From Lutibacter agarilyticus (GTDB lineage: Bacteria > Bacteroidota > Bacteroidia > Flavobacteriales > Flavobacteriaceae), in assembly GCF_900188235.1 (NCBI RefSeq), contig NZ_FZNT01000002.1:248001-312000 (forward strand): a DNA stretch of 64,000 bases, given 5' to 3'. Shown here one piece after another: positions 1 to 7,103 of the stretch. Position numbers and translations under genes: made by a program. The notes under the pieces were generated by a model that was not told the origin of the DNA, made no database searches, and worked only from the letters and a program-made list of their open reading frames with translations. Positions within the stretch are counted from its first letter, which is position 1; each line of letters starts with the position of its first letter.

Positions 1-3000
1 GTAAGGTCTTTAATTTTTGTAGTTATTGTAACTCTTGGATCAGCGCCTACATTTGTTGTACCATCAGGCAGTAGTGGAAAATTAGCAATTATTGCAGAAG
101 TATTTTCAGCATCAACTCTTGAAATCAAATGATTAATTATCCCATCTGTATCTATTTCTAATTCTATTAAGGCTTGTTCAAAGCTCTCATCTATGATATA
201 TACCATACGGCAATCTTCATTCAATCTACCATCTGAAAATGCAGTCATATTCTCATGCACATTCGCATCAGCTGTAATACAACTTAGTTTTGACGTACCA
301 CTCACAATGAAATTATCCATATTTACATTGTTTCCGTTTTCCACATTTAAATAGGATAGCTCTAAGTTATCCTGAACTCTTAATTGATTTAAACTTCTAT
401 TTTTTGAAAGATTTAAACCTGTAAGATTCGTTTCCCAAGCCCATAATCTTTCCAAGTTTAAATTTTTCGAAAAATCAATAGAAGTTATTGGGTTTTGGTG
501 AATCTCTAATCCAATAAGATTGCTGTTATTTGAAAGATCTAACGCTGTTATATTGTTCTGTCCTAACCACAATTCTTCTAATAACGGATTGTTAGACGTG
601 TTTAACGATTCTAATTGATTCGTCCAAGCCCATAATTCTCTTAATTTTTGATTATTGCTTATATCTAAACTAGTCAATTCATTAGCACCAGCTTGTAACA
701 CTTCTAATTCAGTATTGCTGCTTAAATCTATTTCAGATATGGGATTAGAATAAATGATTAAATGATTTAAATTCTTAAACGCAGATAACCCTGTTAGATC
801 TGTTATTTCTTTACCACCTAAGTTTAAATATGTGATATTGTGAACTTCTACCCTTAGCACATCACCGGTTTCACCATTGGTATCAATGCCCGCATTAATT
901 AATGCAAGTTCAAAATTTGGGTCTGGAATTGGAACGACATCATTACATCCATCTTCACTATAAAATGTATTGTTTTCTTTGGCCCAATCTGATGGGATAT
1001 TATTTACCAAACCTGCATCAACTTGAATACAGGATAAATTATAATTAAATCTAACATCAAAAGAATAAGGCCACCATTCTGGAGCTGCAAAATTCAAATT
1101 ATTCCCATTCTCAATATTTATACTGTATAAATCGTTCCCATTAGCCCTTAAAAAAGTTAAATTAGGATTGTTAGAAGCGTCTAATGAAGTTAAATTATTA
1201 TTGGCAATGGATAATTCCATAAGTAGCGGGTTGCTACTTATATCAATGGCTTCCAACTGATTTTGTGAAATGTGTAAATACACTAAACTTGGACAATTCT
1301 TTAAATTAATCGAAGTTACAGGATTGTTATTAATCCATATCCCATTTAAATTTGTATGGGTATTTAACTGTAACTCAGTTAAATTATTATTGTTGCAAAA
1401 CAGTTGTTCTAGATTCACAAAATATTTAATCCCAGTAACATCATTAATTCCTTTGTCAACGATATTAAGCGAATAAATATTTTCAGCATCTATCTGAGAT
1501 ATTTGACCATTCACGGTTTCATCTGTATCTAACCCTAATTCAATTAAAGCAGCTTCAAAAATTGGATCTGGGATAGCAACACTACCACTACAATTGTTGC
1601 TAATAGCAACTGCAGGATCAAGGTTTAAATTAGAATTATCTGCATTCTCATCATCAACCGTGATACAAGACAAACTTGGTAAATTTTGCATTGTTGAATA
1701 AACAATATTTTTGTTGTTTCCGTTTTTTATGGATAGACTTGTTAATGGATTATCAGAAAAACCATACACTTTTAAGTTCGTGTTCGCATCTACATTTAAA
1801 CTTGTAATATTATTATTTGTAAACCAAATACCTTCTAGTAATAAATTTTGACTGACATCTAATTCTGACAGATTATTATTTGCACAACCAATGGTCTTTA
1901 ATACTTTATTTTGACTTAAATCTAATGCTGTAAATTGATTGCTTTCACATTCTAAAATTGATAATACCGAATTTTTGGTAACATCAAGATTTGCAAGTTG
2001 GTTCCTTTGACAGTATAAATCTTCTAAACTTGAAAATGCTTCAATTCCAATTAAACTAGTAATTCCTAAATCATTTACGTTTAGATTTGTAACACCTTCA
2101 ACACTGCTTTTTAATGTTAAATGGTTCATCACACCATCACCCATACTTGATGGGTCACCTATTAAAACCTCATCTCCATTAGCAGTGTGCGTTTCTAAAT
2201 AGGCTTCAAAATTAGTGTCCGGAATGGATACAACATTTTGGCTGATAAGTTTATACGTCCAAAACACACCCGAACCAGCTTCAATTGAAAGCGTCATTAC
2301 ATTGTCATTTTCGGAAAACACAACATTGTAGGTAATAGATTCTGGAACATTAGTAAATTCAGTTAAACTCCCTTCATTAGTGGCTTTAGGTAATCCTAAA
2401 TAAGCACCTTGACCATTTATAGTGATTGTTCCTGCTATTTCATCATAGCTATAAGTTGCTGTTACGGTACCATTATGAGGTGCTTTGGGCGCACCGCATT
2501 GCCCGTTTGGTTCTGCGCCACCTTGCCATGGCTCTAGCCATGTTTCTTCCCCTAAAATATTTTGAAAAGAGCCATCCAAATTAAATACATATTCATCATC
2601 AAAATAGCATGCTCTATCTATTAATGTCTGCTCATCATTTGACCACCATTGATCTGAGCCTTCCGTTGGTCCAACTTTTAAGGCCCCAGCTTCAGATGCA
2701 ATTTTCCAAGCCCTGACTAACAAAAATTCAAAAGGTTCTAAGGTATAAGTTTGTGTATTTAAATTTAAGCTGACGCTATAATAACCTGCTGAAACAGGAA
2801 TATTTGCTCCACCGGCTTCTAAAGAACCATCAATACCGTTATCACCATAATTATTCGCCCAATCATTGTTTTCTCTAAACTTAACTTCACCATCAGTGAA
2901 TTCAACAGTTGCCTCCCAAATATCTAAATCAACATTAAAAGTCATTGGAATATCGGGTCCACCCCAACCATTTGGAGTCGCAGAACCTACAATCCCCCAG

Positions 3001-3062
3001 CCCTGGGAGAAAGAAAAATTTACACATAAAATAAATGCGAAAAAGAGTAGCAATCTTTTCAT
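1..3062 (-). CDS. Secreted leucine-rich-repeat protein with N-terminal glycan-binding-like modules (C-terminus beyond window)
   Basis: An open minus-strand frame runs from the ATG at 3062 off the left edge, giving about 1020 visible residues. A signal peptide (residues 1-20, ending FSFSQ) precedes a SusE/SusF-like module (about 21-110, starting GWGIVGSATPNGW). A second module (about 118-270) is rich in Trp and Cys, with WW, CYFDDEY and GAYLGLPK patches; I associate it with surface polysaccharide-binding proteins of flavobacteria from memory. The rest consists of LRR blocks, each opened by an IPDxxFExxL header, at about residues 276, 493, 708 and 952, followed by LxxLxLxxN-type repeats. The likely role is a surface adhesin or glycan-binding protein. 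A type IX sorting domain would be expected at the missing C-terminus, but it is not visible. It is transcribed divergently from the sensor kinase at 3334, separated by two palindromes. A smaller paralogue with the same header lies at 17559-18467. Confidence 0.85.
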   Translation of the reverse strand, partial: MKRLLLFFAFILCVNFSFSQGWGIVGSATPNGWGGPDIPMTFNVDLDIWEATVEFTDGEVKFRENNDWANNYGDNGIDGSLEAGGANIPVSAGYYSVSLNLNTQTYTLEPFEFLLVRAWKIASEAGALKVGPTEGSDQWWSNDEQTLIDRACYFDDEYVFNLDGSFQNILGEETWLEPWQGGAEPNGQCGAPKAPHNGTVTATYSYDEIAGTITINGQGAYLGLPKATNEGSLTEFTNVPESITYNVVFSENDNVMTLSIEAGSGVFWTYKLISQNVVSIPDTNFEAYLETHTANGDEVLIGDPSSMGDGVMNHLTLKSSVEGVTNLNVNDLGITSLIGIEAFSSLEDLYCQRNQLANLDVTKNSVLSILECESNQFTALDLSQNKVLKTIGCANNNLSELDVSQNLLLEGIWFTNNNITSLNVDANTNLKVYGFSDNPLTSLSIKNGNNKNIVYSTMQNLPSLSCITVDDENADNSNLNLDPAVAISNNCSGSVAIPDPIFEAALIELGLDTDETVNGQISQIDAENIYSLNIVDKGINDVTGIKYFVNLEQLFCNNNNLTELQLNTHTNLNGIWINNNPVTSINLKNCPSLVYLHISQNQLEAIDISSNPLLMELSIANNNLTSLDASNNPNLTFLRANGNDLYSINIENGNNLNFAAPEWWPYSFDVRFNYNLSCIQVDAGLVNNIPSDWAKENNTFYSEDGCNDVVPIPDPNFELALINAGIDTNGETGDVLRVEVHNITYLNLGGKEITDLTGLSAFKNLNHLIIYSNPISEIDLSSNTELEVLQAGANELTSLDISNNQKLRELWAWTNQLESLNTSNNPLLEELWLGQNNITALDLSNNSNLIGLEIHQNPITSIDFSKNLNLERLWAWETNLTGLNLSKNRSLNQLRVQDNLELSYLNVENGNNVNMDNFIVSGTSKLSCITADANVHENMTAFSDGRLNEDCRMVYIIDESFEQALIELEIDTDGIINHLISRVDAENTSAIIANFPLLPDGTTNVGADPRVTITTKIKDL

Positions 3063-3095
3063 AATAAGATAGTTTTAGTTAGTAGTTATATCCAT

Positions 3096-3125
3096 GCCTT
3101 TTTGAACATAATAATTCAAAAAGGC
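3096..3125. promoter_or_regulatory. Perfect 11-bp inverted repeat in the leader of the LRR gene
   Basis: GCCTTTTTGAA (3096-3106) and its exact reverse complement (3115-3125) flank an 8-nt loop, about 35 nt upstream of the LRR protein's ATG. It has no long U-run on the gene side, so it looks more like a leader hairpin or operator than a terminator. Confidence 0.5.
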
Positions 3126-3242
3126 AGGTTTAAAAATAATTTGTGGGGCAATTATTTTGATTTTAATTAGTTGGTGGGGCAATAAAAAATGGATAGCAAT
3201 TTCCCTCTATACAAACATAACATCAACTATTGACAAAGTAAA

Positions 3243-3258
3243 TACCAAATTGTTGGTA
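3243..3258. promoter_or_regulatory. Palindrome TACCAA-N4-TTGGTA between divergent genes
   Basis: A 6-bp perfect inverted repeat, 7 bp counting the flanking A/T, lies about 75 bp upstream of the sensor kinase at 3334 and 180 bp upstream of the LRR gene. The size and place suit a dimeric regulator site; no regulator is assigned. Confidence 0.35.
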
Positions 3259-3333
3259 TATTTTGTATCCCTAATTTTACTATCTTAAGGCCGTGTTATT
3301 TTCAATACTCCTTTTGAATACTCCTATTATTTT

Positions 3334-6300
3334 ATGAACAGATTTGTCCTAATATATTTTGCGATCTTTATTAATTGTTTAAGTTCTCAAACAATTAAGC
3401 CCATAGACACGCTGCATGTGAACTACATTGGTCAAGAACATGGCCTTTTGCAACTTAATGTAAAAGATATGGCGCTTGATGAATTAGGTTATTTATGGGC
3501 TGGAACAGAAGATGGTTTACATCGATTTAATGGTTACGAGTTTAAGACTTATTTACACAATCCGTTAGACAGTAGCTCTATAAAAGATGACCATGTAAGA
3601 GGATTGCTTTTTACAAAAGATACGCTTTGGGTTGCTACAAACTCGAAGGGTATTTTGGGATTTGTCCCTTCTGAAAATCGATTTTTTAGTATCAAAAAAA
3701 ATGAAAATATAGATTTAAACATCAGTTATAAAATAATGCCTCTTGATGAAAAAGAATTACTCTTTTCTGTTAAAAACAATTTAATTCTTTTTAACAGGCC
3801 TGCTAAAAACAGTAAAATAATTAAGTTGCCAGAAACAACGAAAGATAGTTATATTTCGGCCATTTTAAAAATAGACATTAACAACTATTGGTTAGCAAAC
3901 ACTACTGGAATTTTAATACTTAATACCAAAACTTATGATGTTCAAAAAACAACCACTCTAGAAGGTGAAAATATCAAATGCTTTTATAAAAACAACAATA
4001 ACATATATATAGGAACTGAAAATGGATTGTTTATTTATAACATTTTAAATCAACAAATTAGTAAAACACCACTTACATTTTCAATTAATTGCTTTAATAA
4101 ATTACAGGAAAATCAATTTTACATAGGCTCAGACAAAGGATTGTTTTTATATGATATTTTGGAAGAAAGTATCACCCCTTTTGTTTTAAAAATAAACGAA
4201 AATAAACTTCAAGAAAAAATTGACATAAACCAAATTATAAATGACGAAAAAGGGAACTTATGGTTTGGCTCAGATGGTGAAGGATTGTATCATTACAATT
4301 CTTTTCAAAAAAAGTTTAATACCATAAAACTTTCATTAAAAGAATATCCATTAATGAATAATATAAGTTCTTTTCAATTTTTAAAAGGAAAAGATTCTAC
4401 TTTATGGATTGGAACCAAATATGGTATTGTAAAATATTTTCATAAAAACAAAAATTTTAAACTTTATGCTACAGAGGGAGACCCTTTAATTTATGCCATT
4501 ACAAAAGATAAAAACAATACTATTTGGGGCGGTGGTTTTACAACCGGTTTATTGAAATATGATGCTAATACTGATTCATTCATTAAAATTCAAAACACGA
4601 AAAATAATTTACCTGATGATGATATTGTAGATATTATACCTATTGATAACAATACTCTTTGGGTTGCTACCTGGGCTGGAGGAATTCACAAATTTGACAT
4701 TAAAAACGAAAACTTTGAAGAAGTTTTTATTAATGGTAAAAGAATTAATAGAGCCAGGACCTCTTTAATAGATTCCAAAAAAAATATTTGGTTAGGAACT
4801 GACCAAGGTGTATTTAAAATATCTAAATCTGGTATTATTCAAAACTATAACGAAGAAGGTGCATTAGACCAAAAATTAAGTGGAAATAGGGTTTTTAATA
4901 TTAAAGAAGATTACAACGGAAATATTTGGATAGGCACGAATACGGGCTTGACAAAATTAGATATTCAACAGCATAAAACAACTCTTTTCTATAAACAAAA
5001 AGGGTTACCTAATGATTTTATATATTCTATTTTAATAGCTAAAAACAATGATATATGGGTAAGTACAAATTATGGAATTTCTGTTTTAAACACCGAAACA
5101 AATAAATTTAAAAACTATACAACTAGTGATGGTTTACAAAACAATGAATTCAACGGGAAAGCTGGCTATAAAGATCAACATGACAACTTTTACTTTGGTG
5201 GAATTTCTGGGATAAATATTTTTAAAGCTACTAATATTAAGGAAAACCAAAATATCCCTGAGATCTACATAGAATCTGTTGATTTGTTCAACGAACCACT
5301 ACAAAAAAATGAATTATATAAGAACGTGCTAGCATTTAAAAGTGATGAAAACGTACTTACTTTTAACTTTTCAGCCCTGAACTATTTAAATCCAGAAAAA
5401 TGCAGTTATACCTATATGATGGAAGGTTTTGATAATGATTGGCGACCTATAACGAACTCTAGAAATACTACATATACCAACTTAAACCCAGGCAAATACA
5501 CATTTAAAGTGAAAGCCAGTAATGATGTTGGTGTTTGGAATGATGTCCCAGCAACTATAGCTATTGTTATCATCCCTCCTTGGTATCAAACCACGCTATT
5601 TAGATTTAGTTTTGTCATACTTTTTTTACTGAGTGGTATCTCTTTTTATTTCTACAAAACTACTAGACTTAAGAGAGACAAACTAAAATTAGAAAAAATA
5701 GTTACTCAAAGAACACAAGAGATATTAGGTAAAAATGAAGCCTTAAAATTAGCCTACAATAAGTCAGAAAAACAGCGAGATAGCATTAAATTTTTAATGA
5801 GAGAGTTAACACATCGTGTAAAAAACAATCTTCAAATCATTTCAAGCTTATTGAATATTCAGGCCAATACATCAGACAATAAAGAAGCTATTGACGCTTT
5901 AAAGATTGCTAAAAACAGAATTTTAGCAATTGCACATCTTGAAAGTAAAATGACAATTGAGAAAGAAACTATAAAAATTGACGAATTTATTAAGGAATTG
6001 TCTCAAAGTATCATAACAGCACTTTCAGATGATGAAAAACTGAATTTCACTGTTATTTATGACTTAGCTGATGTGTACATTAAAAAAGTAAACACCGTTA
6101 TGATAGGTTTAATATTGAATGAATTAATTACCAATACTACAAAATATGCATTTGATGATTTTAAGCCAGAAAATAAATTAAGTATTAGTTGTAAATTTAA
6201 CAAAACCACTTTAAGACTGATTATTAGTGATAATGGTAAAGGATATTCACTTCAAAAAGATGTACTCCCAAAATCTCTAGGAATTGAATTGGTAACTGAA

Positions 6301-6378
6301 ATGGTGAATCAATTAAATGCCACAATTACCATAAACTCAACAAAAGGCACAGAAAACATTATTGAAATTCCAATATAA
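3334..6378 (+). CDS. Membrane sensor histidine kinase with Reg_prop/Y_Y_Y periplasmic sensor
   Basis: This is a 1014-residue sensor kinase. After an N-terminal signal segment (about 1-20) come many two-component-regulator propeller repeats (WxGTxxGL-type motifs, to about residue 640), a Y_Y_Y domain (about 660-745) and one transmembrane helix (about 755-777). A cytoplasmic HisKA_2-type kinase follows: ELTHRVKNNLQ with phosphoacceptor His827, an N-box (LNELITNTTKYAF), DNGKG, and a second glycine box (LGIELV). The sensor half matches the polysaccharide-sensing hybrid regulators of Bacteroidota. Here, however, the kinase is HisKA_2 and the output is a separate LuxR-type regulator, 40 bp downstream at 6419. 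Its ligand is unknown. The divergent LRR/glycan-binding gene is a plausible target. Confidence 0.9.
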   Translation: MNRFVLIYFAIFINCLSSQTIKPIDTLHVNYIGQEHGLLQLNVKDMALDELGYLWAGTEDGLHRFNGYEFKTYLHNPLDSSSIKDDHVRGLLFTKDTLWVATNSKGILGFVPSENRFFSIKKNENIDLNISYKIMPLDEKELLFSVKNNLILFNRPAKNSKIIKLPETTKDSYISAILKIDINNYWLANTTGILILNTKTYDVQKTTTLEGENIKCFYKNNNNIYIGTENGLFIYNILNQQISKTPLTFSINCFNKLQENQFYIGSDKGLFLYDILEESITPFVLKINENKLQEKIDINQIINDEKGNLWFGSDGEGLYHYNSFQKKFNTIKLSLKEYPLMNNISSFQFLKGKDSTLWIGTKYGIVKYFHKNKNFKLYATEGDPLIYAITKDKNNTIWGGGFTTGLLKYDANTDSFIKIQNTKNNLPDDDIVDIIPIDNNTLWVATWAGGIHKFDIKNENFEEVFINGKRINRARTSLIDSKKNIWLGTDQGVFKISKSGIIQNYNEEGALDQKLSGNRVFNIKEDYNGNIWIGTNTGLTKLDIQQHKTTLFYKQKGLPNDFIYSILIAKNNDIWVSTNYGISVLNTETNKFKNYTTSDGLQNNEFNGKAGYKDQHDNFYFGGISGINIFKATNIKENQNIPEIYIESVDLFNEPLQKNELYKNVLAFKSDENVLTFNFSALNYLNPEKCSYTYMMEGFDNDWRPITNSRNTTYTNLNPGKYTFKVKASNDVGVWNDVPATIAIVIIPPWYQTTLFRFSFVILFLLSGISFYFYKTTRLKRDKLKLEKIVTQRTQEILGKNEALKLAYNKSEKQRDSIKFLMRELTHRVKNNLQIISSLLNIQANTSDNKEAIDALKIAKNRILAIAHLESKMTIEKETIKIDEFIKELSQSIITALSDDEKLNFTVIYDLADVYIKKVNTVMIGLILNELITNTTKYAFDDFKPENKLSISCKFNKTTLRLIISDNGKGYSLQKDVLPKSLGIELVTEMVNQLNATITINSTKGTENIIEIPI

Positions 6379-6418
6379 TTATTAACTTACTCATTATTTT
6401 TTAGCAACTCTCCTTTAG

Positions 6419-7036
6419 ATGATTGAAATTTTACTTATTGAAGATGAATTTATTATTGCAAAAGATATTAAAGTTTTATTAAGTAAGAACAACTTTGCTT
6501 TAGTACACTATGCTAGAAATTACGATTCTGCATTAGATTTATTTGTAAAAAATTCTTACGATTTAATTATATCTGACATTAACCTAAATGGCAAAAAAGA
6601 CGGTATTGAAATCATTACTGAATTTAGCAAAATAAAAAAAGTACCTGTAGTGTATTTAACAGCATATTCTGACTTAGATTTTATTAAACGTGCTGAAAGA
6701 ACAATGCCATTTGCTTATATTTTAAAGCCCTTCAATAATAACCAGCTAAAAACAACAATAAATTTAGCTTTATTAAACTTTAATAAACAATCAATTAAAA
6801 TCTCAGAAAATGAAGAAAATACATCTAAATTAGAGCTTTTAACAATTCGAGAAAAAGAAGTACTTATTACTTTATCTTCTGGAAAAATAACTAAGGAAAT
6901 TGCAGAAGAACTAAATATTTCTAATCATACAGTAGAGCAACATAAAAAAAATATTAGAAAAAAATTAAATCTTACAACTGTTGGAGAGTTGATAAATTTT
7001 ACAATCTCAACTCAGTTATTGAAATTATTTAAATAA
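6419..7036 (+). CDS. Response regulator, receiver plus LuxR-type HTH
   Basis: This 205-residue protein has a receiver domain (about 1-120) with acidic pocket E8/D9, phosphoacceptor D53, T81 and K103, all visible in their expected order. A C-terminal LuxR/GerE helix-turn-helix (about 138-200) contains LTIREKEVL and SNHTVEQHKKNIRKKL. It lies 40 bp behind the propeller kinase on the same strand and is the evident cognate regulator. The pair would transfer phosphate from His827 of the kinase to D53. A 13-bp-stem hairpin at 7104-7135 follows and probably terminates this operon. Confidence 0.93.
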   Translation: MIEILLIEDEFIIAKDIKVLLSKNNFALVHYARNYDSALDLFVKNSYDLIISDINLNGKKDGIEIITEFSKIKKVPVVYLTAYSDLDFIKRAERTMPFAYILKPFNNNQLKTTINLALLNFNKQSIKISENEENTSKLELLTIREKEVLITLSSGKITKEIAEELNISNHTVEQHKKNIRKKLNLTTVGELINFTISTQLLKLFK

Positions 7037-7103
7037 AATTTTAAATCAGTTTACTTTTTGCTGATGATTTATGTCTCAATCACTTATAAACTTTAAAAAA
7101 CAA

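Follow-up and report, generated by a model that had tools for sequence, protein, structure and literature searches.

The window analyzed here (64 kb, G000:C11:248001-312000) begins within a gene for a giant leucine-rich repeat (LRR) protein. In our assessment this giant is likely an exported, glucan-binding surface adhesin, with a starch-type and a laminarin-type domain at its tip and an LRR stalk. LRR giants with shuffled modules are a recurring architecture and not a one-off, as they are also found in two other genomes of the genus.

The giant gene has an open frame on the minus strand that runs from position 3062 to the window edge (1..3062). This 5′ part holds 1,020 of the 2,578 codons of the complete gene (L005:7326-15062, minus strand), and the remainder lies beyond the window at G000:C11:243326-248000. 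The encoded protein consists, in order, of a signal peptide (residues 1-19, MKRLLLFFAFILCVNFSFS; 3006..3062, minus strand; read by eye), two head modules (A and B), eight blocks of an internalin-type cap and LRRs, two HYR/PKD-like stretches and a match to the Por_Secre_tail family. We saw no lipobox in a by-eye reading of the N-terminus. The two HYR/PKD-like stretches were likewise read by eye, from about residue 2310, and weak PKD matches are located at residues 2447-2475. The earlier note had raised a type IX sorting domain as a feature that the completed gene might reveal. A match is present (PF18962, residues 2496-2570), but its 17.1 bits fall below the Pfam cut-off of 27. The giant gene is not within a polysaccharide locus, a SusC/SusD locus or a beta-glucan locus; its nearest neighbors are regulators.

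The earlier note also suggested that the N-terminus holds two modules of polysaccharide-binding type. Structure prediction agrees, as both modules are confidently predicted with carbohydrate-binding folds. The head could have turned out to lack any such fold; the models instead show a SusE/SusF fold and an SGBP-B fold. The modules were folded separately and the head as one piece was abandoned, because a mixed alignment had placed module-B rows on module A. Hits with less than 80% coverage and identical copies were left out of the fold alignments, which kept 71 rows for module A and 40 for module B; 40 rows of each were used beside the window row. A sequence search of the PDB with the whole head returned nothing at E 1.

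Module A (residues 19-115; 2718..3008, minus strand) is predicted to have the alpha-glucan-binding fold of the SusE/SusF type, based on the predicted structure and a sub-threshold match to PF16411. The AlphaFold model has a pLDDT of 95.6. In predicted-structure comparison it aligns with SusF over 96 residues (Z 12.3, 2.2 Å), and it also resembles the X25 domain of Sca5 (Z 10.5) and SusE with maltoheptaose (Z 9.5). Foldseek alone found nothing for module A at E 0.001 (best 2.4e-3), and the PF16411 (SusF_SusE) match scores 22.3 bits, under the cut-off of 27.5. Module A shares its predicted fold with the starch-binding domains of SusE and SusF (PF16411; PDB 4fe9, 4fch, 4fem), and two of its tryptophans, W33 and W68, align with tryptophans of the related BT3088 (SGBPdex). 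It differs from them in falling under the Pfam cut-off and in its carrier, which is a predicted exported LRR giant and not a lipoprotein of a starch locus.

Module B (residues 110-283; 2214..2735, minus strand) is predicted to have the fold of the beta-glucan-binding protein SGBP-B (PDB 7kv5, 7kv6, 7kv7). Its AlphaFold model (pLDDT 92.5) aligns with SGBP-B of Bacteroides fluxus over 144 residues (Z 14.2, 2.8 Å), and the three SGBP-B structures, two of which have a bound glucan trisaccharide, all match at Z 14.1-14.2. Foldseek gives the same match at E 1.1e-6. The next protein reaches Z 9.2; lipocalins and other barrels, at that score and below, were rejected as the identity of module B and were taken to reflect a common barrel arrangement. 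SGBP-B of B. fluxus is described as binding laminarin and barley mixed-linkage glucan, and specificities are stated to differ among SGBPs (PMC7157763). Module B differs from SGBP-B in sequence, with 20% identity, and it is not encoded in a beta-glucan locus, where the sampled relatives mostly are. A PDB sequence search with module B found nothing at E 1. The analysis assigns a fold to this module, which is common in marine laminarin loci and lacks a sequence match in the PDB at that threshold.

The relatives of the two modules come from different kinds of loci. We scanned the neighboring genes of eight chosen loci for each module (51 of 76 frames for module B, 52 of 99 for module A), with small, edge and more distant frames excluded. 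The eight module-A loci (52 neighbor proteins) contain eight each of SusD, TonB plug, alpha-amylase, LacI and MFS matches, and the relatives themselves are SusE-like proteins, judged by eye and from SusE/SusF matches. The eight module-B loci (51 neighbor proteins) contain nine GH16, seven SusD, seven plug, seven Y_Y_Y, three GH17 and three GH3 matches. Based on these sampled neighbors, module A comes from starch loci and module B mostly from laminarin-type loci. The relatives with module B are mostly about 700 codons long, with some shorter and some longer. A scan of named genomes with the head gave 46 loci, whose hosts suggest that the giant belongs to a member of a flavobacterial family. Identity to module B is up to 61% among named loci and 65% among unnamed loci. 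Among the laminarin-locus proteins of marine bacteria with tandem module B, that of Meridianimaribacter flavus (L006) is 55% identical to the module of the giant; it differs in its length of 714 codons, its two module-B copies and its position next to SusC/SusD- and GH16-type genes. Module B was also seen in contigs labeled Halieaceae and Marinimicrobia (L011, L015, L025, L008, L051), where binning errors are possible, and L011 and L015 have it in three tandem copies.

The stalk is made of eight cap+LRR blocks, with caps at residues 280, 497, 712, 956, 1185, 1429, 1764 and 2099. Three of them are complete in the window, all on the minus strand: block 1 (1575..2225, cap IPDTNFEAYL), block 2 (930..1574, cap IPDPIFEAAL) and block 3 (198..929, cap IPDPNFELAL). 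Block 4 (1..197, cap IIDESFEQAL) is cut by the window edge. The four blocks described in the earlier note are therefore there, but the IPDxxFExxL header that it called identical is found in only three of the four. The strict motif occurs seven times in the whole protein and three times in the window part; 2,000 shuffles of the residues gave it 0.0 times on average. The LRRs match Pfam LRR_4 (E 7.9e-31), and their best match among solved structures is Internalin-J (PDB 3bz5, E 5.6e-36). Against the NCBIfam class 1 InlJ model the giant scores 385.9 bits, far below that model's own cut-off of 1700. A spacing of 21 residues accounts for 13 of the 34 spacings between strict repeats. This spacing and the InlJ-type LRRs are shared with internalin-J-like adhesins, including InlJ of Porphyromonas gingivalis, a bacterium with type IX secretion in which this member of the internalin family is described as an adhesin (PMC5915736). 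The giant differs from them in its eight cap+LRR blocks, its predicted glucan-binding head and its weak type IX tail.

As an adhesin, the giant would be exported via the ordinary signal peptide and then the type IX system, and may be held at the cell surface via its C-terminal end. The eight stacked internalin-like blocks would provide reach, and perhaps protein contacts. At the N-terminal tip, a starch- or glycogen-type domain like those of SusE/SusF and a beta-1,3-glucan (laminarin)-type domain like that of SGBP-B could together let the cell hold algae or particles that bear storage glucans or release them. This reading is supported by the folds of the head, the tryptophan positions shared with BT3088, the loci of its relatives, the Internalin-J match, the sorting tails of related LRR proteins, and the content of the own genome, which encodes SprA (TIGR04189, 2531 bits against a cut-off of 200; found in 0 of 14 control genomes), four GH16 genes and a starch uptake locus with module A. 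Counted against it are the sub-threshold matches of the sorting tail and of SusF_SusE, the weak Foldseek result for module A, the location outside a polysaccharide locus and the sporadic occurrence of the gene. In addition, the shared fold of modules A and B, which is itself predicted, is no proof of a shared ligand. Within the own starch locus, the SusD-like protein (L086:9555-11411) has an apparent internal type-A module (sub-threshold PF16411, residues 368-439), which the head matches too.

An alternative that we regard as unlikely is that the giant is a nutrient-capture protein, which concentrates glucans at the surface for SusC/SusD systems encoded elsewhere rather than serving in attachment. 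Both modules derive from capture proteins (SusE/SusF and SGBP-B), and the starch uptake locus and the GH16 genes of the own genome would fit such a role. The giant is far longer, however, than the complete module-bearing frames examined among the relatives, which have 344 to 930 codons with two exceptions (L008, 1,127; L033, 1,576). The long LRR stalk, the N-terminus with no visible lipobox and the position outside a SusC/SusD locus also argue against capture, as does the own genome, in which we did not find a second module-B gene. 

Laminarin is a major storage sugar of algae and is contested by marine bacteria; small lipoproteins of uptake loci usually get the credit for capturing it. If laminarin and starch are bound by the giant, such domains would also serve on long surface proteins outside uptake loci, perhaps in attachment to algae.

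We searched for the head and the LRR chain in related genomes. The head matched in 191 of 397 family genomes and in 34 of 38 genus genomes, and the listed family rows are almost all single-module. Among the matches listed for the family, the own gene alone is a giant frame that matches the entire head. Two other rows span most of the head query. One is a 288-codon protein with module B (G067), located beside SusD-, GH16- and GH3-like genes (by eye), and the other is a 745-codon protein (G268) that has module B along with two different N-terminal domains and an end that resembles a sorting tail (by eye). The C-terminal 819 residues of the giant matched only in the own genome at E 1e-40 (1 of 38 in the genus), which makes the giant a sporadic gene. 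The C-terminal 267 residues found matches in 66 of 299 family genomes, the best outside the own genome being G266, G048 and G292 at 41-42%, and a single LRR block matched in 16 of the 38 genus genomes at E 1e-15.

The two other genus genomes with modules in LRR giants are G417 and G406. The LRR giant of G417 is 2,531 codons long and has module A close to its N-terminus; this protein (L111:2881-10476) also has seven SprB repeats (PF13573, E 1.4e-44). The G406 giant, cut by its contig, has module A close to its start, and its module B follows four LRR blocks. Their cap+LRR blocks are up to 47-49% identical to those of the window giant over the full query block, and module A is near the N-terminus in each. 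They differ in that another N-terminal stretch precedes module A and, in G406, in the placement of module B between LRR blocks. They also adjoin a LuxR-like regulator (by eye) and not a propeller kinase. LRR giants in three genomes (L110, L111, L103) were seen next to a gene of 266-278 codons with a LuxR-like end, again by eye. The earlier note called the combination of head and LRRs uncommon. It is rare among the listed family rows, yet with related giants in two more of the 38 genus genomes it is not confined to this gene. We did not find the combination in the titles and abstract beginnings of open-licence literature; one paper mentions BACON-domain proteins with LRR_5 or Por_Secre_tail C-termini (PMC11216935).

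Other related giants have different heads or no head. Five more giants or large pieces were read by eye. Some have an ELWxxDGT-like run or a P-domain-like stretch, and in G414, G430 and G405 a cap follows shortly after the signal peptide. A homologous 1,960-codon LRR giant of another genus (G266) starts with a cap and is headless. The LRR chain is thus the common part and the heads vary. Sorting-tail scores vary as well (PF18962, cut-off 27): the G417 giant (28.7) and an LRR protein of G193 (45.2) pass, and the G266 giant (20.4) is below.

The headless giants and the shared LRRs would suit a protein-binding LRR adhesin of the InlJ type, in which the head is an inherited decoration that does not bind glucan. 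We consider this quite improbable. A tree built from 109 module-B copies places those of the window giant and of G406 as sisters (support 0.951), which argues that the module has been kept since the two giants split, and both modules are predicted to fold with high confidence. A tree of module A did not resolve whether module A in the giants has a common origin. Hits that cover less than 75% of the profile and identical copies were left out of both trees.

The giant is divergent from a Reg_prop kinase, as the earlier note had stated. The kinase gene (3334..6378, plus strand) encodes a Reg_prop propeller, Y_Y_Y and HisKA_2, and is followed by a response regulator gene (6419..7036, plus strand) with a receiver and a GerE domain (LuxR type). 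We rejected a hybrid two-component regulator (HTCS), since kinase and regulator are separate genes. A search at E 1e-100 recovered the kinase from 2 of 60 relatives; these two, the own genome and G415, belong to the 37 genus genomes that it covered. At E 1e-150, it was found in 14 of 397 family genomes, the own genome included; two candidates per genome were scored in this search, and kinase relatives could be missed. We compared 15 kinase loci, i.e., the own locus, G415 and 13 others, and each of the 14 besides the own has the regulator as well. The opposite-strand upstream neighbor of the kinase is a giant or an LRR surface protein in three loci (own, G415 and G193, the last with 1,277 codons, LRRs and the sorting tail scored above). 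The other 12 of the 15 have other upstream neighbors; in G030, for instance, this is a divergent protein of 613 codons whose start resembles that of a lipoprotein. The suggestion that the kinase senses glycans, as its relatives were said to do, thus gains no support from the gene neighborhood, nor is the kinase a hybrid regulator on a single chain. That the giant presents glucan to the adjacent kinase, as one surface-sensing device, is very improbable, although the two genes are divergent and share a conserved promoter: the same kinase faces a different giant in G415, most kinase loci have no adjacent giant or LRR protein, and kinase propellers of the Reg_prop/Y_Y_Y kind lie in the periplasm, whereas the giant is expected outside.

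The divergent promoter region (3063..3333) is identical to that of G415 at 217 of 271 positions. It is part of a block of DNA homology (3056..7043; counterpart L102:5455-9444; 85% over 3,994 columns) that comprises the kinase, the regulator and the shared promoter. The homology ends 7 bases past the stop codon of the regulator and 7 bases into the reading frame of the giant. Opposite the kinase, G415 has a different, HYR-type giant that is cut by its contig. A search with the first 560 codons of that giant at E 1e-10 found nothing in the 37 remaining genus genomes, including the own. When the six G415 genes that flank the block were compared to the window and L005 only, one matched: a 135-aa stretch of the G415 giant, at 40%, to the HYR-like part of the window giant. 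As the homology stops close to gene borders and the flanking genes differ, the promoter, the kinase and the regulator resemble a unit that is joined to different giants. With the G415 giant truncated by its contig end, and with other genes beyond the regulator as well, a moved unit and a replaced giant look alike here. An assembly error at the G415 junction is possible, but it would be unusual for one to fall on a start codon. It is possible, though doubtful, that this flavobacterial genus has a class of modular giant adhesins that grip two storage glucans of opposite linkage type at once. In that reading, glucan modules would be exchanged among LRR giants, and expression would come from a portable control unit (divergent promoter, propeller kinase and LuxR regulator) that has been fused, only a few bases from the start codon, to different giants in different species. 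A conserved promoter joined to exchanged surface genes makes a case for testing.

The conservation of this promoter suggests that it is probably controlled by the kinase and the LuxR-type regulator. The earlier note reported two palindromes between the genes, and both are there. Palindrome 1 (3096..3125; 11-nt arms 3096-3106/3115-3125) is within repeat I1 in the leader of the giant gene. It is kept in G415 at 17 of 28 positions (3097-3124), less than the regional average of 217/271, which speaks against a shared role for it. Palindrome 2 (3243..3258, TACCAAATTGTTGGTA) was read from the sequence, as its arms are below the minimum length of the repeat search, and is kept at 14 of 16 positions (3244-3259). 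A candidate regulator site, absent from the earlier note, is the direct repeat GTGGGGCAAT, which occurs at 3143 and 3174 (3143..3183, plus strand; starts 31 bases apart). It has two matches in the window compared to 0.01 expected. G415 has kept its GTGGGG twice, and 3134-3183 is kept at 39 of 50 positions, about the regional average. An operator conserved across the kinases was rejected: in the 300 bases before each kinase start (271 for the window) at the 15 loci, the GTGGGG pair is found only in the own genome and G415, G245 has a single copy and the other 12 have none. Shortly before the kinase start, at 3299-3324, are tandem 13-base copies (TTTTCAATACTCC / TTTTGAATACTCC).
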